NCBI GenBank assembly: GCA_015143295.1
Contig: CM026559.1
Coordinates: 17,622,826-17,686,825 of the forward strand
DNA length: 64,000 bases
Direction of reading: 5' to 3'
Origin: Tetracentron sinense
Lineage: Eukaryota; Streptophyta; Magnoliopsida; Trochodendrales; Trochodendraceae
A program made the translations under genes and the position numbers. Below are positions 2,291 to 59,982 of this stretch, in pieces; positions within the stretch are counted from its first letter, which is position 1, and each line of letters starts with the position of its first letter. The notes below the pieces were generated by a model that worked only from the letters and a program-made list of their open reading frames with translations, made no database searches and had not been told where the DNA came from.

Positions 2291-4410
2291 AGATACTAGT
2301 TTCATTAACTAGACCTCAGAGATAAACAGTGGCTGATTATACTAGAGTGTCGCGACCCAAAACCCACCCTAGGAGTTAAAGTAATCTTGGACGACTTGAC
2401 ATGACTTACATGTCTTGCTTGACAACCAACCTGCAAAAATACTTGGGGCATATACAAAGAGGACATAATAGTAGAAACATAACTACATGGCACAGCGGAA
2501 GACTAACCAAACCTCTAAGTATATATATATATATACAAGATTCAAGTTTTGAACAAAATAAGAACACAAAAGAAAGTGCGGACAGGCCCATCAAAATACA
2601 TCAATCTAATCTCTCAAGCTCACACCCACAGCGAAATCACTCAGAATCTATCACCTAGTAGTAGCCCTCGACTTGAGATTCCTCCACAGGTTTCTCAACG
2701 TACTCTTCTTCTACCCATGGGCCAGGAGCACAGATATCGAAAGGAGCCGCTGCTCCACTATCACCTGGCACATAAGAAGTACGGCTGAGCATGGAATACT
2801 CAACGGGTAACAAATACTAACCAACAGTCATAGCATAAAAATAGCAATATATAAAGCAGGAAGCAATTCAGATAGTTAACAAGAAAATAAACAGTTTATA
2901 TTCATGCTTGCATCACATAAAAGCTGATAAAACTCTTGAAATCATCGTGCACTTGACTTGACTTAAAATACTCTTTTCATGCTTGAAAAACTTGTCATGC
3001 CTGTCTTGCTTGGTCTTGTCGAGCGTGTCATGCTTGCGTGTCATGCTTGCTTGAAAATTAAACGTGCTCATGTAACTTGTGAGATGCGCTTGTGAGATGC
3101 ACTTGAGAGGAGGGAGGCCCTTCTTTAATGATATGCACTTGAGAGGGAAGGGGGGCCCTTCTTTAATGAGATACACTTGTGAGTGAGGGGAGACCCCTCG
3201 TAGAAGGGAGGGAAGTGTAAACTCCCTCCTATGCGATGCTTGTTCTTGTCCTCTTGTCAAAAGCGAGGTAAAACATATCGTAAGATATGTCCCACCTCTA
3301 AACCGTGTTCTTGAAAATACCGATAAACCATGTCATGCATGTCGTGCTCGTGGAATCGTGTACATACCTTCACTTGAAATTAAATATGACATTTGGGGAT
3401 TTCAACAATACATAGAATATTATAATTTGAAACAAGTAAGTATTCATGCCATTTAACGAAAGCAATTAATCTCACTATCATAAATCCTAGCAATTTCATA
3501 TGCTTTTAAACATGCATTTCTTGATTTACAACTCACTCTCTTCACCTTGGCATTTCATCAAACATGTGGTGTGTACATTATTTGTTAAAGCCTACATCAT
3601 GCTTTTCTAGCTTGGTTTATATTCACAACATACATGTGTGTTTATTATTGGTACAATACCCTTCCTCATTTCATTCATCACAATACATACACACGGTGTC
3701 ACGACCCAAAACCCACCCTAGGAGTTAGAGTGAATCTTAGACGACTCAATCATGACTTACATGACTTGCTTGACAAACCAACCTGCAAAAACCCACAGAG
3801 CATATACAATAGAGGATATTATAGCGGAAACATAACTATAAAACACAGCGGAAGTCTAACAAACCTCTAAGTATATACATATGGTCCAAGTTTATACAAA
3901 AAGTAACCAGAAGCAAGTGCGGACAGACCCGCCAAAATACATGGATATAATCTCTCATCTCACCCACAGCTAATCCACTCAGAATCTACAACCACCTAAT
4001 GGTAACCCTCTACGGGAGGTTCCTCCAAAGGCTTCTCGACGTACTCCTCCTCCACCCAAGGGCTCGAAGCACAGATATCAAATGGAGCAGCTGCTCCGCC
4101 ATCACCTGCCGACATAAGAAGTACGGCTGAGCATGGAATACTCAGCGGGTACTAAGCACTGACCAACAGTCATAGCATACAGATAGCATACGTAAAGTAG
4201 GAAGCAAGTTGCATATATAGAACATGAACAATTTATATCATACAAGGAAGTAAAGCAATTTATATTCATGCTTGCATTCCAAAAGACTGATAAAACCCTT
4301 GAAAACATCGTGCACTTGACTTGACTTGAAATACCATTTTTCGTGATTAGGAACTTGTTAACCGTGTCATGCTTGTCATGCTTGCATTTTCATAATTTAA
4401 ACATGTTCAC

Positions 4411-4624
4411 ATGCCTAGTTGCCGTTCATAGTCCGTCACAACTAGTACCCTATATGCAGATGGGTATGCCTAGTTGCCGTTCATAGCCCGTCGCAACTAG
4501 CATCCATGCGGAATGTGAATGCCTAGTTGCCGTTCATAGCCCGTCGCAACTAGCATCCATGCGGAATGTGAATGCCTAGTTGCCGTTCATAGCCCGTCGC
4601 AACTAGCATCCATGCGTGATGTGT
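4411..4624 (+). repeat. 53-bp minisatellite x4 in LTR
   Basis: Four direct copies begin ATGCCTAGTTGCCGTTCATAG at 4411, 4466, 4519 and 4572 (spacing 55, 53, 53). Each unit contains CCGTCGCAACTAGCATCCATGCG in the later copies. It is private to this LTR among those seen in the window. Confidence 0.9.
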
Positions 4625-5624
4625 GATGCTATGCTATGCGTGTCATGCCATGCTATGCTATGCGTGTCATGCGATGCTATGCATGTCATGCGAGGGGATG
4701 GGAGACCTTTCCCTATACAATGCATGATTGTCTTGCCCTTGTCAAAAGCGAAGTGAAACATATCTTAGGAGATGCCCCACCTCTACGTCTCATACTTAAA
4801 ACATCGGTAAATCACGTCATTTCATGCGTGCTCGTGAGATCGTGTGCATACTTGCATTTGGAATTAAATATGGCAATTTGGGGTAATTCACAAAGCATAT
4901 CATATAACAATTTAAGCGAGTAATAATCTACGCATTTTAAGAAATGTAAGAAACACACTATCATGAACCCTAACAAATTTCAAGAGCAATTAAGCATGGG
5001 TTCCCTTAATTTATCATTTATTTTGTTCACCTTGGCATTTCATCAAACATGGGGTATGTTCATTATTCACTTAAACCTAGATCATGCTTTTCTAGGTGGG
5101 TTATGCTCACATCACACTTGTATGTTCATTATTGGTACAATGCCCTTTCCCATTCGTTCATCACATCATCCACACGGCATCCATTCGCCAACATCCATCT
5201 CCATTCACCATTCATACCACCAATCTCATAACACATATATAAATGAAGGAAAACAAAAAGAAACAAAGGAAAAAGGAAGCTATAACTAGGAGGGTAGTAA
5301 GAAGTACCGACCTTGAACAATGAGGAAGAAATCCCCCTTTCAAAACGACCGTGAGTTGCTGCCCTAGCTTGAGGAGAGTGTCCCACACGAGCTTGAGCCG
5401 AGATCTCGAAGAAAATGGACTTGAGGTGAGTGTGGGTTCACAACCCTTTGATTTCTCCTCCAAAAATCAAACCCTAGGTTAGGGATCGCCTTCTTCTCCT
5501 CTCCTTAGCTCTCAATCTTCTAAGTATTGTAAAATAAGCCCTAAAGGCTCGGGCAAGACTCTTAAGGTAAGAGTAAACTGCCCAAAAGACTAAAACACCC
5601 TTACTAAGTTTTCTGCAAAAACGC

Positions 5625-5820
5625 GAGTACCGAGCGATCGGTGTTAATGACCGATCGATCGGTTGCCTACCGATCGATCGGTTTCATAACCGAGCGATCG
5701 GTTAAAATTTCACTCTCTGGAAAATTTCCCCATACAAAAATCTCGACCAGTCGATAGCCTCCGAGCGATCGGTTTTGGACCGATCGATCGCTCCATGGAC
5801 CGAGCGATCGGTGGTCTGCA
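5625..5820 (+). repeat. Palindrome array, core CCGATCGATCGG
   Basis: About seven copies of a 12-14 bp near-palindrome (ACCGAGCGATCGGT or ACCGATCGATCGGT), spaced 10-40 bp apart, just before the conserved tail of LTR 3697-6024. The same array in the same place is seen at 29445-29640. Confidence 0.9.
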
Positions 5821-6467
5821 GGTCCAAACTGTTTTGGCCATAACTTTTGACTCGTTCGTCCGATTTCGACGATTCAACTTGCGTTGGGTTCGTACTTCGA
5901 AAACGAACATTTCTGACGTTTCGGAATTTCCAATTTCTTCCTTATTTATTAATTATACCTCTTTAAAGGCAAAATGGCAACGAAAGTTTCATGCATTAAA
6001 TGTGAAAAGGTCCGGGGCTCTACACACGGCATCCATCGCCCTTTCATCTCCACACAACTATCCATCTCACATTTATATTCATACTTTGATGGAAAACAAG
6101 AAAGAAGGGAAGAAAATGAGAGAATACAAACTAGGAGGGTAGCAAAAGGTACCGACCCTGAAGAAGTGAGGGAAATCTTCCCAAAATGTGTGTGAAGTCG
6201 CTGCCCTAGTTTGGAAAACGTATTCCTCACGAGTTTGAACCTTAGATTGAAGAATCCAAGCCTTGAGGATGATTGAGGGTTCTCAAAACCCTTGATTTCT
6301 TCTCAAGTGCAAACCCTAGGTTTGGAAGCTCCTTTCTCCTCTCTCCCTATCTCTCAAATACTCTAAGTGTGTTGAATGAGGCCCTCAAGGCTCGGGCAAG
6401 CCTTAAAGAGGCAGGGGTGTAACGCCCAAAAGATGAAAAATCCCTTAATGAAATTCTACAAAATACG

Positions 6468-12899: not shown

Positions 12900-13080
12900 A
12901 TTCGCGTGCCTACGATCATTCGTAGGCCTCTACAATCGTTCGTAGGTTTCTACGATCGATCGTAGCTTCTCCAGTGATTTTATAGCAATTATTTGGCTTT
13001 ACCATTGATCATAGCAACTCTATGATCGTTCATAGCGCTGTTACGATCGTTCGTAGGTCTCATACGAACGATCGCAACTT
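12900..13080 (+). repeat. Palindrome array, core TACGATCGTTCGTA
   Basis: Six or so copies of near-palindromes such as CTACGATCATTCGTAGG, CTACAATCGTTCGTAGG, CTACGATCGATCGTAG and TTACGATCGTTCGTAGG, starting about 50 bp after the TATA-like box and ending just before a CGGCCATAACTTTTGACTCC block. Confidence 0.88.
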
Positions 13081-17159: not shown

Positions 17160-17385
17160 CGAGAGCGATCGATCTCACACCAACTGCGATCGATCGTAGC
17201 TTGTAGTGCGATCTATCGCACCTGGAGCTGATCTATTGCACATGAACCCGAATTTTTTTGTAAATTTTCCACTATATGCGATCGATCGCACACCACCAGT
17301 GATCGATCGCAAGTTCACCCGAATGTTTTCTCAGTTTTTTCTCTGACTGCGATCGATCGCACCTTATCTGCGATCGATCGTAAAT
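17160..17385 (+). repeat. Palindrome array, core GCGATCGATCGC
   Basis: At least six copies of TGCGATCGATCGCA-like palindromes, some decayed (GTGCGATCTATCGCAC, GAGCTGATCTATTGCAC, CAGTGATCGATCGCAAG). Starts about 50 bp after the TATA-like box. Confidence 0.88.
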
Positions 17386-20228
17386 CTCATTTTCTCACCT
17401 ATAGATCCTTTGGAAATGTTTTTACTCTTACTCCTCTCATTTTTAGGGCATTCACTCAGCCACTTGTTGCCCAGATATTAACCCTAGTGGGGGGGTGAGT
17501 AGGGTCTATGCAAATTAAAAACAAATTTTTCCTTTTGAATACGAAATTAAATTGACAATGGGAAAGCAACTTAACAGTTCTAAAATAAATGCAATAGAGA
17601 AAGTAAAGTGGAGAGTTAGAGAGAGCAAATACTCAGTCTTTGTTCACGAGATTTGACAACTTGTCTACGTCCTCGCCTTTCAGCTTCCAGCTTCAAGGAT
17701 TCACACGATTTTTATTTCCAAATCGATTAAACTGGTTCCAGGCGAGTCCTAACCTTTACAATCTCTGTTCACAGGTCGAGATAGAACCTTTCCTTGTAAG
17801 AGCACAACTCACACTTGACTTCTTTGAAGCAGTAGCTTCAATTTGCAAGAATCCAAAGATTCTTGACTTCTCTTTTACAAAGTTTGTTTTCGATTAGCAA
17901 TCCAAAATTTTTCCAAGGTTTAAATAGCTTTAACCATGATTAAAAGCTAACCAGGATTGAGTTAAACCCAGTTAAGGGTCTGAGCAAGTCAAAAGTGGAC
18001 CCAGGTAGTATGGCAGGGCCTAGAATGGCCTCTTACCTGATCTGGGCCCTGTGTAAAGCCCACTTACAGAAAGACCAGGAATGGCGGTAAATGGATTACC
18101 ACCATTTCCAATTCTTTACAGAACTGGAATAGCGGTCATCTATTTACCGCCAATTCCAGGTATTTCTGAAACTGAGTTTGCATGATCAGGGGTAAGGTCA
18201 GGAGTAAACCCATTGGGCTATGGGCCCTCAAGGATGGTTAGGGGATTCCCCTATGTGTCTTGGGCCTATTGTGGGCCCCGGGTTTGGTCAGAGATGGGCC
18301 CACAGTGGCCATCTAAACACTATAACTGAAATCCCAGAATGGCGGTAGAACGTTTACCGTCATTCTGGAAAATTTTCAAATTTTAGATTTTTAATCATGG
18401 TTAAGCTATTAGGGTGAACCTGGAAGGATTAGTGTCGCGACCCAAAACCCACCCTAGGAGTTAAAGTGAACTTTGGACGACTAATCATGGCTTACATGAC
18501 TTGCTTGACAAACCAACCTGCAAAAACCCACAGAGCATATACAATAGAGGATGACAGCGGAAACATAACTATAAAACACAGCGGAAGTCTAACAAACCTC
18601 TAAGTATATACACATGGAAATCCAACTTTATACAAAAAGTAACCAAAAGAAAGTGCGGACAAACCCGCCAAAATACATGGATATAATCTCTCTTCTCACC
18701 ACAGCTAATCCACTCAGAATCTAAAACCACCTAATGGTAACCCTCTACTGGAGGTTCCTCCAAAGGCTCCTCGACGTACTCCTCCTCCACCCATGGACCA
18801 GGAGCACAAACATCAAATGGAGCAGCAGCTCCCTCAGAACCTGCCGACATAAGAAGTACGGCTGAGCATGGAATACTCAGCGGGTACTAAGCACTAACCA
18901 ACAGTCATAGCATACGGGTAGCATACATAAAGCAGGAAACAATTCATATCATACAAGGAAGTAAAACAATTTATAATCATGCTTGTATTTCGTAGAAAGC
19001 CGATAAAACCTCTTGAAAACATCGTGCACTTGACTTGGCTTGAAATATCTTTTCGTACTTGAAAGCTTGTTGTGTTTGTCTTACTTGATCTTGTCGAGCG
19101 TGTCGTACGTGTCATGTCATGCATGTCATGCGTGCTTGCTTGTGATCATGTAACTTGTGAGATACACTTGTGAGATATCCTTGTGAGATGCGCTTGAGAG
19201 ATGCCTTGAGAGGGAAGGGAGACCCTTCTTTATGCAATGCACTTGCGAGGGAAGGGAGACCCTTCTTCATGATATGCACTTGTGAGTGAGGGGAGACCCC
19301 TCGTGGAATGTTGGTTCTTGTTTTCTTGTGAAAAGCGAGGTAAAACATATCGTAGGATATGTCCCACCTCTAACCATGTTCTTGAAAACCTCGATAAATC
19401 ATGTCATGCATGCCGTGCTCGTGGGAACCATGTACATACTTGCATTTAAATTTAAACATGACAGTTGGGTAATTTCACAACACATATAACATCAATGATT
19501 GAGCAATGTAATATTCATATCATTTAGGGAAAGCAAGAAAACACACTATCATACGCCCTAGCAATATCCATAATTTATTAGGCATGCATTTCCTAAATTA
19601 CAACTCACTTTATTCGCCTTGGCATTTCATCAAACATGGTGTGTTCATTATTCATTATTCATTTAAACCTAAATCATGCTTTTCTAGGTGGGTTATGCTC
19701 ACATCACACTTGTATGTTCATTATTAGTACAATGCCCTTTCCCATTCATTCATCACATCATCCACACGGCATCCATTCGCCCATTCCATCTCCATTCACC
19801 ATTCACAACCATCCATCTCATAGCACATGTGTAAATGAAAGAAAATCAAAAGAAATAAAGGGAAAAGAGGAACTATAACTAGAAGGGTAGTAAGAAGTAC
19901 CGACCTTGATCAAGTGAGGAAGAAATCCCCTTCCAAAAACGACCATGAGTTGCTGCCCTAGCTTGAGGAGATGCTCCTCACGAGCTTGTGCCTTGATCTT
20001 GAAGAAAAACGAGCTTGAGTTGAGTGTGGGTTCGCAAACCCCTTGATTTCTCACCAAAAATGGAAACCCTAGGTTTAGGAATCGCCCTCTCCTCTCTTCT
20101 TATCTCCCAATCTCTCTAAGTGTCGAAATGAAGCCCTAAAGGCTCGGGTTAAACTCTTAAGGTAAGAGTGAACCGACCAAAAGACCATAATACCCTTACT
20201 GACATTTCTGCAAAAACACGAATGCCGA

Positions 20229-20440
20229 ACTCGTTGAGCTGTGAATAGTGCCAAACACGTTGTGCTGTGAACAGTGCTGAACACGTTGTGCTGTGAACAA
20301 TGCCGAACACGTTGTGCTATGAACAGTGCCGAACACGTTGTGCTGTGAACAGTGCCGAACACGTTGTGCTGTGAACAGTGCTGAACACGTTGTGCTGTGA
20401 ACAGTGCCGAACACGTTGTGCTGTGAACAGTGCTGAACAC
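20229..20440 (+). repeat. 26-bp tandem array, about 8 copies
   Basis: Units starting ACACGTTGTGCTGTGAACAG recur at 20255, 20281, 20307, 20333, 20359, 20385, 20411 and 20437 (exact 26-bp period; the last is partial). A diverged unit precedes them. The long open frames across this stretch are by-products: 26 is not a multiple of 3, and the array reads open in several frames on both strands. Confidence 0.95.
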
Positions 20441-20444
20441 GTTG

Positions 20445-20755
20445 TCCGTTGTCTTATGTACAACGTGCCCGTTGTTGCTGTACAATGTACCCGTTGTTGC
20501 TGTACAACGTACCCGTTGTCTGTTGCACAACGGATGCACAACGTATACGTTATCATAGCTAGAGCTACGTTATCGGAGTACGTCCTTAGTGCCTTCCAAG
20601 CTACGTCCTTAGCGTATAACCGAGCTACGTCCTTAGTGCATAACCGAGCTACGTCCTTAGTGTATAACCAAGCTACGTCCTTAGTGTATAACCGAGCTAC
20701 GTCCTTAGTGCATAACTGAGCTACGTCCTTAGTGTATAACCGAGCTACGATTGCA
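20445..20755 (+). repeat. CGTTGT repeats and 24-bp tandem array
   Basis: First, variants of ACAACGTACCCGTTGTTGCTGT (about four). Then, from about 20575, six to seven copies of a 24-bp unit GAGCTACGTCCTTAGTGTAT + AACC. Ends directly before the conserved GTAGGTCCAGACTGTTTTGG tail. Confidence 0.92.
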
Positions 20756-20968
20756 TGTAGGTCCAGACTGTTTTGGCCATATCTTTTGACTCGTTCGTCC
20801 GATTTTGACGATTCAACTTGCGTTGGGTTCATACTTCGAAAAGGAACATTTCTGATGTTTCAAAATTTCCAATTTCCTCCTTATCTATTAATTATACCTC
20901 TTTAAAGGCAAAATGGCAACGAAAGTGTCATGCATTAAATGTGAAAAGTTCCAGGGCTCTACAATTAG

Positions 20969-23965: not shown

Positions 23966-25608
23966 GGCTCACAAGTAAACATGGCAAGACAAGTCAAGAC
24001 ATGACAAGACAAGCATGACAAGTGTGATTCCAAATAAAAACAAGACAAGACATGTGTGATTCCTACAAGGCAAGAACAAGTTTTGACAAGACAAGCAAAT
24101 TTTGGAAACCACGAAGAGTTATTTTTCAAGAACAAGCCACGAATTTCAAGTATGAGTTTTATCAGAGGTTTGCATTATCCCATGCATGTCATGAGCATAG
24201 CATTGTTTTATTTCTTGATGTTGTATTGTTTCAAATATTGTAATTATGAATTGTATTTAGTTATTGTTATCGTAACACGTTATTACTATTGGTAGTTAGT
24301 AGCTTGTACTCGCTGAGTATTCCATACTCAACCGTACATCTCATGTCGGCAGGTCCAGTGGGTAACTTCGACCTTGAGCCTTAGGTTGAGGAAGAATACA
24401 TCGAGTAGGCGGCACCTATTGTCGCGACCCAAAACCCACCCTAGGAGTTAGAGTGAACTTTGGATGACTAATCATGGCTTACATGACTTGCTTGACAAAC
24501 CAACTTGCAAAAACCCACAGAGCATATACAATAGAGGATGACAGCGGAAACATAACTATAAAACACAGCAGAAGTCTAACAACCTCTAAGTATATACACA
24601 TGGTCCAAGTTTAATACAAAGAAATCAAAACAAAGAAAGTGCGGACATGCCCGCCAAAATACATGGATATAATCAATCATGCTCACCCACAGCTAATCCA
24701 CTCAGAATCTAACACCACCTACTGATAACCCTCTACGGGAGGTTCCTCCAAAGGCTCCTCGACGTACTCCTCCTCCACCCATGGACCAGGAGCACAAACA
24801 TCAAATGGAGCAGCAGCTCCCTCAGAACCTGCCGACATAAGAAGTACGGCTGAGCATGGAATACTCAGCGGGTACTAAGCACTAACCAACAGTCATAGCA
24901 TACGGATAGCATACATAAAGCAGGAAACAATTCACGCATATAAAGCAGGAATGATTCATATCATGACAATAAAGTAAAGCAATATAATTCATCATGTTGC
25001 ATTCATAAAAGCCGGTAAAACCCTTGAAATCTTGTGCACTTGACTTGACTGAAATTACCCTTTTTATGCTTGAAACCTTGTCTACCGTGTCATGCGTGTC
25101 ATGCTTGTATCATGCGTGTATCATGCTTACTTGTTCTGAAAAGTAATCTACTTGTGAGGGAAGGGAGACCCTTCTTCCTAGAATGCCCATGCTTGTCCTT
25201 CCACTTGTGAGATTCACTTGTGAGATGTCCTTGTGAGATGCACTTGTGAGGGAAGGGAGATCCTTCTTATGATATGTATGCACTTGCGAGGGAAGGGAGA
25301 CCCTTCTTATGAAAATGCATGATTGTCTTGTCCTTGCCAAAAGCGAGGTAAAACATATCGTAGGATATGCCCCACCTCTAAATCCCATTCTTGAAAACCT
25401 CGGTAAATCATGTCATGTATGCGTGCTCGTGAGGTCGTGTGCATACTTGCATTTGGAATTAAATATGGCATTTGAGTAATTCATAACACATAACATCAAT
25501 GATTTGAGCAATTTAGTATTCATATTATTTAGGGAAAGCGAACAATCACACTATCATGACCCTAGCAATTTCCGTAAATCTTAAACATCCAATTTCTTAA
25601 TTTATTAT

Positions 25609-28600
25609 TGTAACGCCCCAAAACACCCCCTAGGAGTTAGGCGATATTTGAGCTCGTTACCTACCACGACAACCATCCTGCAAGAGCATACAAGGCAAGC
25701 TAAACAGTGAATTGAAATTTTCTTTAACATAAAGGTAATTCCAAGTGTTCACATAAACGAACGACTGAATAAAATACAATAATACAGATGTACAAATGCT
25801 TGAATTACCAATTCAAGCCTACATGAAACTCCCCCCAAGAGTAAATCCCAAAATACATGTCTCTCTCACTCAACCCCACCATAGTACCACATATCCAAGC
25901 CCCCAATGTCTGGTGACAATTCCAAAAAGCTCCTACTCTCTCTGATAACCTCGATCCACGGACCCAGAATGAATACAACATATATTGTACCTGCCGACAT
26001 AAAAGTACGGCTGAGCATGGAATACTCAGCGAGTACAAGCTCCTAGCTAACCATAGTAATAACGAGTAAATAACATATACAAGTGATGGAATAGTACACA
26101 TCATAATTATTTAAAACAACATAATACATAAACATTTACCAAATCATAATTTTCATGAAGTCCAAACTATTGTCTATGAATCATGTGAGTCCTTATGAGT
26201 TTTCCTTTCCATATTTCTTATGAGCCAGAGGTTCCTCGACCTCCTTGACAATTCATTTCTTTTCTTATGAGTCAGAGGTTAGCACTCGCACATCCCTGGG
26301 CTACCAACCTCCTTGATAGTTCCATATCTTTCTTATGAGCCAGGGGTTAGCACCCGCACAATCCTGGGCTACCAACCCCCTTGACAATTCCATTACTTTT
26401 CTTATGAGCCAGAGGTTAATCAACCTCCTTGACAATTCAATTCTTTTCTTATGAGCCAGAGGTTAGCACCCGCATATCCCTAGGCTACCAACCTCCTTGA
26501 CAGTATAATATATTTCTTATGAGCCAGGGGTTAGCACCCGCACAATCCTGGGCTACCAACCCCCTTGACAATTCCATTACTTCTCTTATGAGCCAGAGGT
26601 TAATCAACCTCCTTGACAATTCAATTCTTTTCTTATGAGCCAGAGGTTAGCACCCGTATATCCCTGGGCTACCAACCTCCTTGACAGTACAATATATTTC
26701 TTATGAGTTAGGGGTTAGCACCCGCACATCCTTGGGCTACTAACCCCCTTGACAATACAATACCTTTCTTATGAGCCAGAGGTTAGCACCCGTATAATCC
26801 TGGGCTGCCAACCTCCTTGATAGTTCCATATCTTTCTTATGAGCCAGGGGTTAGCACCCGCACAATCCTGGGCTACCAACCCCCTTGACAGTTCAACATA
26901 TTTCTTATGAGCCAGAGGCTAGCACCCGCACATCCCTGGGCTACCAGCCTCCTTGACAGTCCAATACTTTACTTATGAGCCAGAGGTTAGCACCCTTAAC
27001 CGGGGCTACCAACCTCCTTGACATTTCATTTATCAAACTTATGCATGTGAGGTCTTACTTACTTTCCTTACATTTACCTGTACTCGTTTCACTTCTTAAT
27101 GCTCATTTAAAAACCTTAGTTCATTCACATATCCGTGCTTGTGTGTAGCAAGTTGTGGAAATCATAGTGACATATTCATGCATGCATAACAATTGGTGAT
27201 ATCATGGTGATATAATGATAAACATCATATAGTATTACTATAATCCCAATAAGCATGTGAGTTTTTGAGGAACATGTATAACATTTCGTTCAAGTTTCCC
27301 AATTGGGGAGAAACCCCTAAATCATATTTTCATTATCTTAATTTAGTCCTCATTCATGCATTTCATCAAATATGTGATATGCAATAATTGTTTTAACCTT
27401 TAACTTGTATATTTAAATCAAGCATTTCATCAAACATGTAGTGTATGTGCATTATGGATACATTGCCCTTCCACCATTTTCATCACACAATAATCATCAC
27501 CTCTACATGGCATCCAAGTACCTCTACCATCCACATCCCATACATCCACAACCATTTAATTCATCTTGTTCATTTAGGGCATTTTATACATTATTAAGAA
27601 GAGGGAATATATACAAGATCACACACTAGCATGCTTAAAGGAAAATCTAGGTTATCACTAAGCTTAACTAGGAAGGGTGTACTAACCTTGATAAGGGAAA
27701 GAAAACCCTTGAAAAATGCCGTGGAGAACGCTGCCCTAGCTTGGAATAGGACTCCACACGTGCTTGAGGTTGGATTTGAGAGATCCAAGCTTTAGAGATG
27801 GTCGTGGGTTCCAAAACCCCTTGATTTTCTCAAGTTGATGCCCTAGAGTGAAAACCCCTTCTCTCCTCTCTCACTCCCTCTCAAAATATGTCTAAGGGTG
27901 TTTATGAACCCCCTTGGCTCGAGCCAACCCTTAAAAATAAGGGTGGAGTGGCCAAAAGACCAAAAAAACCCCTAAAAAAATTCTGAAAATCGCGTAGGAC
28001 CGATCGATCGGTGGTTTTGACCGATCTCTCGGTAGTGACTGGTGCTGCAAAACGCACTTCAGTATTTTGCTCATAACTTTTGACTCGGATCTCCATTTTT
28101 GACGATTCAACTTGCGTTGGATTCGTCTTTCGAAGAGGAACAACGTTTATGTTTTGAAGAAATTCTAATTCTTCTTTATTCATAGACCAAAATTCCCTTA
28201 AAACTGACTGGTCTGCAATGGGTTGCGACAGCCCAGATTTGCAGCCAATCCGATCTTGGGAATCCCACTTTTGACTCGACTCCGACTCAAAATCAGGGAA
28301 AGTGATCAACATGAACCTTGAAGAGGGTTCTAATACCTTTCCAAAAATTCAGTAATCACTTGATTCTGAACAACAATGACTAAACTAGAGCCCTTTAAAG
28401 TTGAAGCAAATGCCGAGACATACCTTTTCAACACCTAGAACACCTCGAGTGTTTTCACACTCTTTTCTCTTGTGTCCAACACCCTGCTGATACCTCATAA
28501 ATCATTATCCATAAGTATTTAACCCACCTCAATGATCATTAAATTCACACCGACATGCATGAGAGACTCCGGCCTCTCGATGCCTCATGCACTAGCACTA

Positions 28601-28831
28601 TTCACCAACAACCCATTGAAACACTTAGGGTATGTGTACCCTTGATTTTATCCACTTAGAGTATCTTTACACTCTCTTTTTAAGACTCAAACCATGTATC
28701 TAAAACCCTCACTTGACTAATCATAATATCCAGAACACAATGAAAGGCCTTAGGCCTTTACACACACCATATAAGAACACTATTCACTAACACTATTCAT
28801 AGCATAGTGAACTCGGTTCCGGGGTTCTACA
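25609..28831 (+). mobile_element. Solo LTR, family II, innermost, TSD ATTAT
   Basis: Runs TGTAACGCCCC to CGGTTCCGGGGTTCTACA, 3223 bp, with exact TSD ATTAT (25604-25608 and 28832-28836). Deepest layer of the nest. It carries the largest minisatellite (26195-27035) and a short ACCGATCGATCGGT array near 27995-28045. A CCTGCCGACATAAAAGTACG block at 25990 is shared with the other LTRs. Confidence 0.93.
26195..27035 (+). repeat. Two-length minisatellite, about 13 copies
   Basis: Units start CTTATGAGCCAGAGGTTAG (or CAGGGGTTAG) and end CCAACCTCCTTGACA plus a short AT-rich spacer. Long units are about 65-70 bp and include CACCCGCACAATCCTGGGCT. Short units of about 49 bp lack that block. Long and short forms are interspersed. 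Confidence 0.92.
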
Positions 28832-29444
28832 ATTATTCATTTCATTCACCTTGGCATTTCATCAAACATGGTGCATTCATTATTTATTAACCCTACAACA
28901 TGCTTTTCTAGGTGGGTTATGCTCACATCATACGTGTTTGTTCATTATGGATACAATGCCCTCCCCATTTCATTCATCACATCATTTCACACGGCATCCA
29001 ATCGTCAATTCCATCTCCATTCACCATTCACACCCATCCATCTCATAGCACATGTGTAAATGAAAGAAAACAAAGAGAAATAAAGTAAAAGAAGGAACTA
29101 TAACTAGGAGGGTAGCAAGAAGTACCGACCTTGAAGAAATGAGGAAGAAACCCCTTCCAAAAACGACCGTGAGGTGCTGCCCTAGCTTGGGGAACGCTCT
29201 CCACGGGTGCTTGAGCCGTGATCTTGGAGAAAAGCCGGACTTGAAGTGATCTAGGGTCTCAAAACCCCTTTGATTTCTCTTCCAAAGACAAACCCTAGGT
29301 TGGAATCGCCTTCTCCCCTTTCTCCTATTCTCTCAAACTCTCTAAGTGTCGAATGATGCCCTAAAGGCTCGGGCAAGACTCTTAAGGTAAGAGTAAACCG
29401 ACCAAAAGACCATAATACCCTTACTGAAATTTCTGCAAAAATGC

Positions 29445-29640
29445 GAGTACCGAGCGATCGGTGTTAATGACCGATCGATCGGTTGCCTACCGATCGATCG
29501 GTTTCATAACCGAGCGATCGGTTAAAATTTCACTCTCTGAAAAATTTCCCCATACAAAAATCTTGGCCAGTCGATAGCCTCCGAGCGATCGGTTTTGGAC
29601 TGATCGATCGCTCTATGGACCGAGCGATTGGTTGCCTGCA
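29445..29640 (+). repeat. Palindrome array, core CCGATCGATCGG
   Basis: Same order and spacing of ACCGATCGATCGGT-type palindromes as 5625-5820. Preceded by TTCTGCAAAAATGCGAGTAC and followed by CTGCAGGTCCAGACTGTTTT. Confidence 0.92.
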
Positions 29641-30192
29641 GGTCCAGACTGTTTTGGCCATATCTTTTGACTCGTTCGTCCGATTTTGACGATTCAACTT
29701 GCGTTGGGTTCGTACTTCGAAAATGAACATTTCTGACGTTTTGGAATTTCCAATTTCTTCCTTATTTATTAATTATACCTCTTTAAAGGCAAAATGGCAA
29801 CGAAAGTGTCATGCATTAAATGTGAAAAGGTCCGGGGCTCTACACCTATTCCGCTTTAGCCACAGGAGGATAGAGATCTGGATGTGTGGCCATATCTAGA
29901 TTATTGTGAGTAAGGTCTTATATAGAGAGAGATAGACTCAATCTTTGGTGTTTTGATGGTGGGTATGTCAACTATACTTGTTATGTTTTGTATAAACTTG
30001 GAATACCGATTATGTATAGAAAAAGAAAAAGTTGATTCACACTTCTGCACTATTTAAGTTTCTGCACTTTATTATATGTTTCCATTTTAGGATGTTATTA
30101 CCTTGTTTATTGCAGGATGGTTTGTTAGGTATGTATAGTCACGCTTAAAGTATCCTTTAACTCCTAGGGGTATTTTGGGGTGCGACAGACTG

Positions 30193-32648: not shown

Positions 32649-35064
32649 TGTAGAGCCCTAGAACTTTTGCTATGTATTGGAACTTGTGCCAAGGTATTTT
32701 TACTTTTGTAATCCTCATATTTCTATGAAATGAGAAAATTTAAAGAACTCTAAGTGTTAAGAAGTAGTATTCCTAAGTCAAATATATCGAAAACCCGAGT
32801 TACTGAAACCCATTTGCGGATCAGTCGACTTTAGGGGCAATTTAGTCAATAAATAAGGAAGAAATTAAAAATTCTAAAATACCAGGAATGTTTCCCTTCG
32901 AAAGACGAATCCAACACAAGTTAAATTGTCAAAATCGGGCAACCGAGTCAAAAGTTATGGTCAAATTACCAAAATAAGGGAAAAACTGGGAGAAAACAAC
33001 AAGATCTGGAAGGTGCGATCGATCGCAAGTTTGGTACGATCGATCACATGCAGGCGAATTGGGTCCCAAACTCTTGAGGTCATATGGGATAGATGGATTC
33101 CCTAGGCGCGATAGATCGCAGGGTTCTGCGATCGATCGCAAGAATGTGAGATCGATCGCATACAGGGGGAAATCAGACCAATATGTTCGGGTTCATGTGC
33201 GATAGATCGCATCTAGGTGCGATCGATCGCAAGGACCTGCGATCGATTGCAGATAAGTGTGCGATCGATCGCATACGGTAACTGAAGCCGGTTTGAGGGT
33301 TTTAACCCATGATCTATTTGAGGGTTTTCATTTTGGGGCATTTCTAACCTAGAGGAGAGAAAGAGGGAAGAGAAAAGAGAAGAGGATTCTGAGGAAATCC
33401 TCCAAGGAGCTTGGATTGAGAGATCAAAGGGAGTTCAAGCTTGGGAAATTGCAAGCAAGGGGCTTCCCCAAAGCATCATGAGTTCTCCATACCCAAGTGA
33501 GAGTTTTTCCTCAAGTTGGAATCCACATCAAGGGTGTTCTTCGACCCCAAATCAAGGTCGGTACCCTACACTACCCTCCTAGTTCATAGTCTCTTTTATT
33601 TTATATTTTTCCCTAAATTTTTAAGCACGATAATGTGAGGATGAATGGATGGTCGTGTGTATGTGAATGGGTGATTGGATGTCGTGTGTTTGTTGTAATG
33701 AATGAAATGGGGAGGCAGTGTACCAATAATGAATACACATGTGTGTTGTGATCGTTAACCCACCTAGAAATTCAAGATTTAGGATTAACCATAATACACA
33801 TACCTCGTATTTGATGAAATGTCAATGTGAAGGAGATGAGTTGTAAATCAGGAAATGCATGCTTAGAAGCTTACAAAAATTGCTAGGGTTTATGATAGTG
33901 TGATATGTTGCTTTCCCTAAATTGGTATGAATATTGATTTGCTCAAATTATTGATGTTCTATGTATTACAAAATCCCCAAATTGCCATATTTAATTTCAA
34001 ATGAAAGTATGCACACGATTCCACGAGCACGGCATGCATGACATGTTTTACCGACGGTTTTACAAGAGTAAGGATGTTAGGGGTGAGACATATCTTACAA
34101 TATGTTTTACCTTGCTTTTGACAAGAGGACAAGAACAAGCATTTCTTAGGAGGGAGTTTACACTTCCCTCCCTTCCATTAGGGGTCTCCCCTCACTCACA
34201 AGTGCATTTCATTACAGAAGGGTCTCCCTTCCCTCTCAAGGCATATCACGAAAGAAGGGCCTCCATTTCCTCTCAAGGCATCTCATAAGCGCATCTCACA
34301 AGTACATGAGCATGTTAAATTCTCAAGCAAGCACGCATGACAAGCATGATACACGCATGACACGCATGATACAAGCATGATACGCATGACATGACATGAC
34401 ACGACAAAACAAGACACATGACAAGACGAGTTTTAAAGCACGAAACGAGGATTTTAAGTCAAGTCAAGTGCACGATGTTTTCAAGAGTTTTATCGGTTTT
34501 TATGAAATGCAAGCATGAATATAAACTGTTTTACTTTCTTGTTATGATATGAATCGCTTCCTGTCTTATATTGTATTTGCTATGCTATGGCTGTTGGTTA
34601 GTATTTGGTACCCGTTGAGTATTCCTTGCTCAGCCGTACTTCTTATGTCGGCAGGTGATAGCGGAGCGGCTATTCCTTTTGATATCTGTGCTCCGAGCCC
34701 TTGGGTGGAGGAGTATGTCGAGGAATTTGTGGAGGAACCTCTGGTAGAGGGTTATTATTAGAGGTAGTAGATTCTGAGTGAATAGCTGTGGGTGAGTTGA
34801 GAGAGATGTATTCATGCACTTTGGCGGGCCTGTCCGTACTTTCTTGTGTGTATCTTTTTGTATAAACTTGGATCACATATATATATGTAGAGGTTTGGTT
34901 AAGTCTTCCGCTGTGCCATGTTGAGTATGGTTCCGCTATTTTTGTCCTCTATTGTATATGCTCTATGTATTTTTTACAGGTTATTTCGTCAAGCAAGTCA
35001 TGTAAGTCATGATTAGTCGTCCAAGATTCACTCTAACTCCTAGGGTGGGTTTTGGGGCGCGACA
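32649..35064 (-). mobile_element. Solo LTR, family I, reverse orientation
   Basis: On the + strand starts TGTAGAGCCCTAGAAC and ends GGGTTTTGGGGCGCGACA, 2416 bp. It contains a reversed GTACTTCTTATGTCGGCAGG block (34636) and reversed family landmarks. Flanks AGTTA and GGTTT do not form a TSD. A TTGACCAGTT string lies just outside each end (32639-32647 and 35068-35077). Confidence 0.8.
33013..33280 (-). repeat. Palindrome array, core TGCGATCGATCGCA
   Basis: About nine copies including GGTGCGATCGATCGCAAG, CTGCGATCGATCGCAAG and GTGCGATCGATCGCATAC, plus decayed GGCGCGATAGATCGCAGG. Same core as 17160-17385, although this LTR has family I ends. Confidence 0.9.
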
Positions 35065-58718: not shown

Positions 58719-59982
58719 GGGGCCGTTTGGATACACTTCCGTTTTTCTATTTTTGTTTTTTGTTTTTAAAAATTGGAAACAACTTTTTATTTTCAATTTT
58801 TTAAAATAGGAAACACGTTTGGTATTAGTAACTGTTACTTATTTAAAAAAAATAAAAACAAAAAAACACGTTTGGTAAATATGATTAAATAATTTCAATT
58901 CATGATGGTGGTAGTGGTGAGTGATGGCGGTGGGTGTAGTGTGGTAGTGAGTGTTGGTAATGGTGGTGGTGGTGTGGTGGTGGTGATGGTGGCGGTGGTG
59001 TGGTGGTGGTGGTGGTGGTGGTGGCATTGGTGGTGGTGATGGTGGCGGTGGCGGTGGTGGCGGTGGTGATGGTGGTGGTGGCGGTGGTGATGGTGGCGTT
59101 GGCGGTGGTGGTGGCGGTGGTGATGGTGGTGGTGGCGGCGGTGGTGGTAGCGGTGGCGGTGGTGGTGGTGATGGTGGCGGTTGTGGTGGTGTGTGGTGGT
59201 GGCGGTAGTGGTGGTGGTGGTTGTGTGGTGGTGGTGGTGGTGGTAGTGGTGAGTGATGGCGGTGGTTGTAGTGTGGTGGTGAGTGTTGGTGATGGTGGCG
59301 GTGGTGTGGTTGTGGTGGTGAGTGTTGGTGATGGTGGCGGTGGTGGTGGTGGTGATGGTGGCATTGGTGGTGGTGGTGATGGTGGAGGTGGTGATGGTGG
59401 CATTGGTGGTGGTGGTGGTGGTGATGGTGGAGGTGGTGGTGGTGTGTGGCGGTGGCGGTGGCGGTAGTAGTGGTGGTGTGTGGCGGTGGCGGTGGCGGTA
59501 GTGGTGAGTGATGGCGGTGGGTGTAGTGTGGTGCTGAGTATTGGTGATGGTGGCGGTGGTGTGGTTGCGGTGGTGATGGTGATGGTGGTGGTGGTGGTGG
59601 TGTGGTGGTGGTGATGGTGGCGGTGGTGGTGATGGTGCCATTGGTGGTGGTGGTGGTGGTGGTGATTGTGGTGGTGGTTGTATTGTGGTGGTGGTGGCGG
59701 TGGAGGTCATGGTGGGTGGTGAGTAGTGGTGGTGGTAGTAGTATTATGGTGGTGGTGAATGGTGGTGGTGGTGATAATGGGTGTGTTTTCTATTTTTGTT
59801 TTTTGTTTTCAAATACAGAGATAGTAGAAAATTTTTGTTTCCTTGATTTTCAAAAATTTTGTTACTAATTTTTAAAAACAAAAAGCAGAAGCATGTTTAC
59901 CAAACATGTTTTGTGTAAAAATTTTCAAATTTTTGTTTTTAAAAACAAAAAATAGAAAACGGAAGTGCAACCAAACAGGGCA
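58719..59982. mobile_element. PIF/Harbinger-like element inside foldback
   Basis: Left GGGGCCGTTTGGATACACTT and right AAGTGCAACCAAACAGGGCA are inverted, followed inwards by CCGTTTTTCTATTTTTGTTT and its reverse. TCA flanks both ends (58716-58718, 59983-59985), a 3-bp TSD as in Tourist/PIF types. No transposase. The middle is taken over by the TGG microsatellite. Confidence 0.7.
58905..59778 (+). repeat. (TGG/TGA/CGG)n microsatellite, about 870 bp
   Basis: Mostly GGTGGTGATGGTGGCGGTGG variants with frequent GTGTGGTGG phase shifts and longer-period repeats such as GTGAGTGATGGCGGTGG. The His/Thr/Pro and Val/Gly open frames up to 271 aa (58895-59710 minus) follow from the absence of stop trinucleotides and are not proteins. 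Confidence 0.97.

Follow-up and report, generated by a model that had tools for sequence, protein, structure and literature searches.

The window analysed here, i.e. the whole 64-kb stretch of DNA, carries three solo LTRs (A, B and C) of one Ty3/gypsy family, whose aligned pieces outside an internal slot are 80-93% identical pairwise. The slot holds either a cassette of three tandem-repeat modules (referred to below as E) or an array of palindromic sites (P), and the three LTRs are laid out as follows:

18433..20963, minus strand: solo LTR A, with an E-type slot and the perfect 5-bp TSD ATTAG on both sides
20761..20963, minus strand: conserved U3 5' end of LTR A (the right flank in window orientation), which adjoins the polypurine tract (PPT) in full-length copies
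20217..20760, minus strand: slot of LTR A with the E cassette, 544 bp
20223..20445, minus strand: E module 1, a 26-bp array of 8.6 copies
20457..20532, minus strand: E module 2, a middle block of CGTTGT/ACAACG with a 22-bp period
20579..20749, minus strand: E module 3, a 24-bp array of 7.2 copies
19057..19324, minus strand: second variable array slot of LTR A, with 13/37-bp units
24420..29844, minus strand: solo LTR B, with a P-type slot and the perfect 5-bp TSD CCTAT, split by a nested LTR
29442..29641, minus strand: P slot of LTR B, 200 bp, with palindromes ACCGATCGATCGGT and variants
25609..28831, minus strand (by similarity): nested solo LTR (TGTAACGCCCC...TTCTACA) inside LTR B, from a related family, TSD ATTAT
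3697..6024, minus strand: solo LTR C, with a P-type slot and the perfect 5-bp TSD CACGG
5622..5821, minus strand: P slot of LTR C, 200 bp
4345-4737: second array slot of LTR C, with 53-bp CTAGTTGCCGTTCATAGC units in place of the 13/37-bp units

Alignment and the exact TSDs confirm what a preliminary description of this DNA had proposed, namely three LTRs with conserved flanks around a slot of differing content. The palindrome array of about 190 bp that it reported as common to two of them measures 200 bp in both B and C (95.5% identity between the two), and the roughly 540 bp of 26-bp, CGTTGT and 24-bp units in the third comes to 544 bp. That third content had been called unrelated; this needs correction, as its outermost bases are common to E and P. 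Long arrays also occur elsewhere in the window: a 184/68-bp minisatellite (TTTCTTATGAGCCAGAGGTTA...) lies within the nested related-family LTR at 26214-27028, and an 868-bp array of TGG-like triplets (~289 units, 72% match) at 58906-59773.

The identity of the element and the position of the slot were read from relatives of these LTRs. Full-length relatives have a TGGTATCAGAGC primer site (PBS GAAG-TGGTATCAGAGC), which we take to be an initiator-Met (iMet) PBS, after ...GGGTCGCGACA, and a PPT that precedes TGTAGAGCCC; the positions of PBS and PPT imply that the coding orientation is minus in the window, and they place the start of the slot ~203 bp into U3, near its 5' end. Two pol pieces at locus L012 gave matches to RVT_1, RT_RNaseH, Integrase_H2C2 and SH3_Tf2-1, together with a Chromo match whose score of 24 bits is just below the curated cut-off of 25.1. 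Judged by these domain matches, this is a Ty3/gypsy element, probably a chromovirus, and from the PPT context and the domain layout we assume that its lineage is Tekay/Del-like.

Genome-wide, the slot proved to be recurrent, with two stable contents in thousands of copies each, so that LTR A is not the one unusual copy that the preliminary description had allowed for. The right boundary of the slot was found 8,308 times at no more than 1 mismatch, E right edges 3,562 times and P right edges 3,816 times at no more than 3 mismatches (controls 0 in both cases). The two edge patterns are mutually exclusive by their letters and no place matches both; about 930 of the 8,308 boundaries match neither, and the E and P shares are only rough because the thresholds for boundary and edge differ. 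Among 100 boundaries listed, the edge is exactly that of E in 55 cases, exactly that of P in 14 and neither of the two in the other 31, and the boundaries matching neither edge pattern may include a third slot content. When every fifth listed boundary was read blind to slot content (n=20, including 4 of the 31 without an exact edge), 15 turned out to be E and 5 P, a proportion that is not the genome ratio of E to P because the sample lies on contigs C1 and C2, of which C1 is rich in E. For the E cassette itself a first look yielded 2,913 candidates; all 40 places that were scored, the window among them, matched it, and it was present in all 20 loci retrieved, with boundaries agreeing within 1-2 bases; the P array had 3,720 candidates, of which the best 40 match at 97-100%. 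Cassette length ranges from 297 to 1171 bp among the copies examined, the largest slot among them being that of L068 (C1:37359872-37361412), which spans ~1,170 bp and in which the 26-bp unit matches 27 times. Among the matches listed, C1 has 50 exact E edges and 12 exact P edges, C2 as far as 62.3 Mb has 50 and 27, and C3 has 55 exact P edges (P edges only); this uneven spread across the three contigs may reflect subgenome or age differences.

Comparison of the ends of the two contents bears on how the E cassette came to occupy the slot. The P array starts with CGCGAGTACCGAGCGATCGGTG and ends with ACCGAGCGATCGGTTGCCTGCAG, and the E cassette typically starts with CACGAGTGCCGAAC and ends with ACCGAGCTACGATTGCCTGCAG; in L010 the left start of E reads ACGAGTACCGAGC, and L062 ends with ACCGAGCGATCGATTGCCTGCAG, which is intermediate between the E and P ends. 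At the right end, 33 of 34 E copies resemble P more closely than shuffled sequences do (p<0.01). At the left end this holds at p<0.05 in 21 of 34 copies (at 0.01 in 8 of 34), leaving 13 of the 34 without significant left-end homology against shuffles. Outside its own array, the 24-bp unit finds its best match in the window in a stretch of 11 bp within a P slot. Because the E ends resemble the P ends and the 24-bp unit matches a P slot, E most likely retains the outer parts of the two terminal palindromic units of P and has replaced the P interior. Both flanks were kept at the birth of E, with the junctions falling within those two terminal units.

It could be argued that the E cassette is instead a separate mobile or satellite sequence that was inserted into the LTR, as its tandem repeats make up a block with sharp boundaries (297-1171 bp) that P copies lack. 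The preliminary description had pointed to a cassette TSD as the mark of such an event, and inspection by eye revealed none around E: the CTGCA found at both sides occurs in P copies as well. The resemblance of the E ends to P units, the lack of any array of E units elsewhere within the window and the best match of the 24-bp unit, which is to the P slot, also speak against an insertion, and we regard this origin as extremely unlikely. A feature common to both contents was sought at the level of RNA structure and is unsupported, since P folds and E does not: the P slot gave a folding z of -4.9 (0 of 200 shuffles as low), as expected of any palindrome array, and the E slot gave -1.7 (4 of 100 shuffles as low). 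E also contains 20 ACGT against 8.0 in shuffles, an enrichment that we set aside because copies of one unit are not independent.

Palindromes are found at the same place in other LTR families, three examples of which lie in the window:

12910..13078 (ends approximate), minus strand (inferred): CTACGATCGTTCGTAG-type palindrome array of another LTR family, beside the conserved block, with TATAAATAGG downstream
27999-28033, minus strand (inferred): ACCGATCGATCGGT and one imperfect copy in the nested related-family LTR, at the place corresponding to the slot
33014..33273, plus strand (inferred): TGCGATCGATCGCA palindrome array of another LTR family, beside the same conserved block

In all six other-family loci whose sequence was examined beside this conserved U3 block, palindromes are present at the matching place, and in five of the six they include perfect 12-bp palindromes. 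Those of the CTACGATCGATCGTAG type occur at window positions 12910-13078, in L021 and in L039; L030 has two imperfect palindromes around GGTCGAC (by eye). The palindromes found next to this one conserved block differ by LTR family, most of them being built around a CGATCGATCG core, and a further palindrome site was seen at window positions 17277-17361. Since palindromes occupy the same place in 6/6 other-family loci, P is likely to be the older content. In coding orientation, a TATA-like box (TATAAATAGG or TATATAAA) follows the palindromes at ~55-110 bp in four of the six loci, three of which are of the CTACGATCGATCGTAG type; of the other two, one has a weaker CATAAAC and one has none. Within 300 bp downstream of the slot, a canonical TATA is absent from 77 of 78 main-family copies. 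The layout of palindromes and TATA in the other families lends support to a possible role of the slot arrays as upstream activators, against which stand the lack of a main-family TATA and the single palindrome type of three of the four TATA-bearing loci.

These observations also leave room for a broader scheme, tentative and somewhat short of an even chance, in which several Ty3/gypsy-like families of this plant would possess a dedicated U3 socket, set between a conserved block upstream and the promoter, for family-specific palindrome arrays that evolved in parallel to those of Sireviruses and are swapped as a cartridge, E being a recent non-palindromic cartridge that has spread to roughly half of one family's copies. 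If this were true, host-factor binding could change in one recombination step.

To follow the two contents through the family we compared slot type with trees of the flanks, a comparison that the preliminary description had proposed and whose outcome is divided. The downstream-flank tree (446 columns) has 71 rows, 34 E and 37 P, which represent 70 distinct LTRs; LTR B was entered twice (winB and L029 are one place) in both flank trees and in the scoring of the second slot described below. On this tree the E/P labels need 4 changes, 2 of them forced by well-supported branches, against 23.8 changes for shuffled labels, and a single P clade is rejected (lnL 124 lower, p 2e-5). An earlier version with 52 rows contained the odd-flank rows L009.2 (L009 consists of two LTRs close together), L043.2 and L076 and gave 6 changes, 4 of them forced. 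The final tree was built without these three, without the pair partners L079-L081 and L083-L085 and without L057, L065 and L068, in which the downstream flank is absent or short; dropping rows cut the changes from 6 to 4 and the forced ones from 4 to 2. The upstream flank, which is of low power (205 columns, 73 rows), needs 3 changes with 2 forced, and there one P clade is not rejected (p 0.34). At the pol end (1,100 columns) the split between 5 P and 7 E copies is weakly supported, one clade is again not rejected, and E-P identity is 82.9-96.6% (median 93.4%). Since E and P labels cluster strongly on both flank trees, exchanges appear to have been few in the sample. Because a single P clade is rejected downstream and not upstream, the slot and the U3 5' end look like one block that moves against the downstream LTR.

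Block identities along individual LTRs point in the same direction. Over 600 bp of downstream flank, identity to the E copies L014/L018 is 92-100% for three P copies (L074, L055 and L032) and then drops to 54-79%. Against the P copies L067, L038 and winC (LTR C) the same three copies reach only 59-80% over the first 200 bp of downstream flank, yet their slots differ from the slots of those copies by just 1-3.5%. For winC the identity to L074/L055/L032 is 68-80% over the first 200 bp and rises to 96-99% from ~400 bp outward. P slots are 95-99% identical throughout the comparisons made. The LTR is a mosaic elsewhere too, with breakpoints that also lie far outside the slot. It follows that the earlier proposal of a slot whose content turns over as a block between kept flanks holds in part: the slot is recurrent, has two contents, and both flanks were kept when E was born, but later exchange does not appear to have involved the slot alone.

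A second slot, further downstream, contains either 13/37-bp or 53-bp units. In the 56 rows that could be scored, E is combined with 13/37-bp units in 19 and with 53-bp units in 1 (L014), and P is combined with 13/37-bp units in 20, with 53-bp units in 4 and with both motifs in 7; the remaining 5 have neither. All four combinations of the two slots occur, that of E with 53-bp units in one copy alone. We weighed these data against the possibility that E and P are simply two old, separate subfamilies and that nested insertions, short flanks or convergent arrays have misled the trees. The strong clustering of the labels (4 changes vs 23.8 in shuffles) agrees with such a history, as does the failure to reject one clade on the upstream flank or at the pol end. 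The downstream flank nevertheless rejects a single clade with the odd rows dropped, and neither the abrupt switches in block identities nor the four slot combinations sit well with two subfamilies that stayed apart, which makes this explanation very unlikely.

Putative LTR pairs of single insertions were then used to place the exchange in time. A scan of C1 and of the first 62.3 Mb of C2 for pairs with exact edges on the same strand 7.0-8.3 kb apart returned 19 pairs, 13 EE, 6 PP and 0 EP, and no opposite-strand pair at that distance. One EE pair (37525693/37532836) is possibly part of a duplicated stretch, as a plus-strand boundary pair adjoins it at nearly equal spacing; without it, concordance of slot type is 18/18. 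TSDs match in 2 of 3 pairs tested (ATTAC and CCTTT), and the third runs into N. Both LTRs of one insertion thus appear to share their slot type, which fits exchange in reverse transcription.

Five pairs were read. In L084/L085 the 26-bp array has been lost from one LTR, together with a piece of the flank. Taken together, four pairs have 54 slot differences in 1,629 columns and 8 downstream-flank differences in 1,476, a 6.3-fold excess (p 8e-9) that becomes 7.5-fold outside CpG sites (p 3e-7), both p values being optimistic because differences within tracts are not independent; an alternative alignment gave 43 slot differences. The upstream flank, with 3 differences in 204 columns, has too few to be ranked. 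Copy number changes as well: L064/L080 differ by about +75 bp in the 25-bp units and by -71 bp in the 24-bp units, and L082/L083 by -39 bp. The TSD-verified pair L060/L079 shows 18 slot differences against 0/373 in the downstream flank; compared with the relatives L073 and L078, 13 of the 18 are private to one LTR (8 in L079, 5 in L060) and 5 match one relative or the other. In L072/L081 the slot differences form a clustered tract beside a nearly identical downstream flank. Because the slots of these two pairs differ and their downstream flanks are nearly identical, change after insertion must also act.

The same two pairs are the observations that suit an exchange occurring after insertion altogether, by ectopic gene conversion between genomic LTRs and not in reverse transcription. 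The concordance of slot type in 19/19 same-strand pairs argues against it, as do breakpoints far outside the slot, and the 13 private differences in L060/L079 resemble new mutation more than a copied tract. We consider gene conversion unlikely as the main route.

Cumulatively, our findings are best accommodated, and we hold this with fair confidence, by a model in which the slot is a U3 array slot of an abundant Ty3/gypsy element in which the interior of P gave way to E, E and P lineages then trading parts of their LTRs through template switching. The slot would house upstream regulatory arrays just ahead of the presumed transcription start, with the palindromic-site array as its older content. 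In one lineage the P array probably collapsed, and tandem growth of new seeds in the remnant would have produced the three-module E cassette. As the minus strand was synthesised through U3 and R, template switches between RNAs packaged together may then have moved LTR segments between E and P lineages. A new insertion would derive its slot, along with the U3 5' end, from one parent and the downstream LTR parts from the other, and its two LTRs would be alike. Within one insertion the arrays go on changing in sequence, copy number and register. The parts that we infer are that the arrays act as activators, that P preceded E and that the exchange took place in reverse transcription; the two contents in thousands of copies, their common edges, the mosaicism, the concordant pairs and the fast divergence of the slot were observed directly.

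Exchange of U3 arrays is known in kind, and recombined U3 modules have already been described from a few families; the case presented here is a large-scale one in a plant Ty3/gypsy family. Subfamilies of the Tnt1 superfamily (Ty1/copia, Solanaceae) differ mainly in U3, the rest being conserved, which was described as modular evolution (PMC1838419). U3 content likewise varies here while other parts are shared, but in another superfamily and with two array contents in similar thousands within one genome. In HERVH, blocks of LTR7 were recombined among subfamilies into regulatory modules (PMC8912925), an exchange of LTR blocks among lineages like that seen here, although HERVH is an animal endogenous retrovirus, for which effects on expression were demonstrated. 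The fungal element crapaud of Podospora has its divergence concentrated in U3, and template switch and gene conversion were both discussed (PMC10787394); some of its full copies carry LTRs of different subfamilies, whereas 0 of 19 pairs here differ in slot type. For Onsen, new insertions from an Arabidopsis burst gave direct evidence of pairwise recombination, which fell at the first template switch in most cases and in U3 in one (PMC5668417), and ours is a historical inference.

The closest parallel for the palindromes is found in Sireviruses, in which most copies of the palindromic repeated motifs start 200-400 bp after the PPT/LTR junction, upstream of TATA, with a sequence that differs by element; the motif was described as Sirevirus-specific (PMC2829016). 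Short palindromes are clustered in U3 at 200-400 bp after the PPT junction here as well. Sireviruses, however, are Ty1/copia, whereas the element here is Ty3/gypsy by its domains and most of the palindromes in the present set have the CGATCGATCG core. A search of titles and abstract openings in the open-licence literature found no palindromic arrays in U3 of plant Ty3/gypsy elements. In relation to the literature found, the new elements are the two contents in near-equal thousands, the birth of one inside a palindrome array, the second slot and palindromic arrays outside Sireviruses. With thousands of copies, two contents, a second slot, full-length pairs and related families at hand, rates, breakpoints and the birth of arrays become measurable. 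Because the Ty3/gypsy palindrome arrays sit at a position known from the Ty1/copia Sireviruses, the analogy would suggest that two superfamilies have converged on one way of recruiting host factors.
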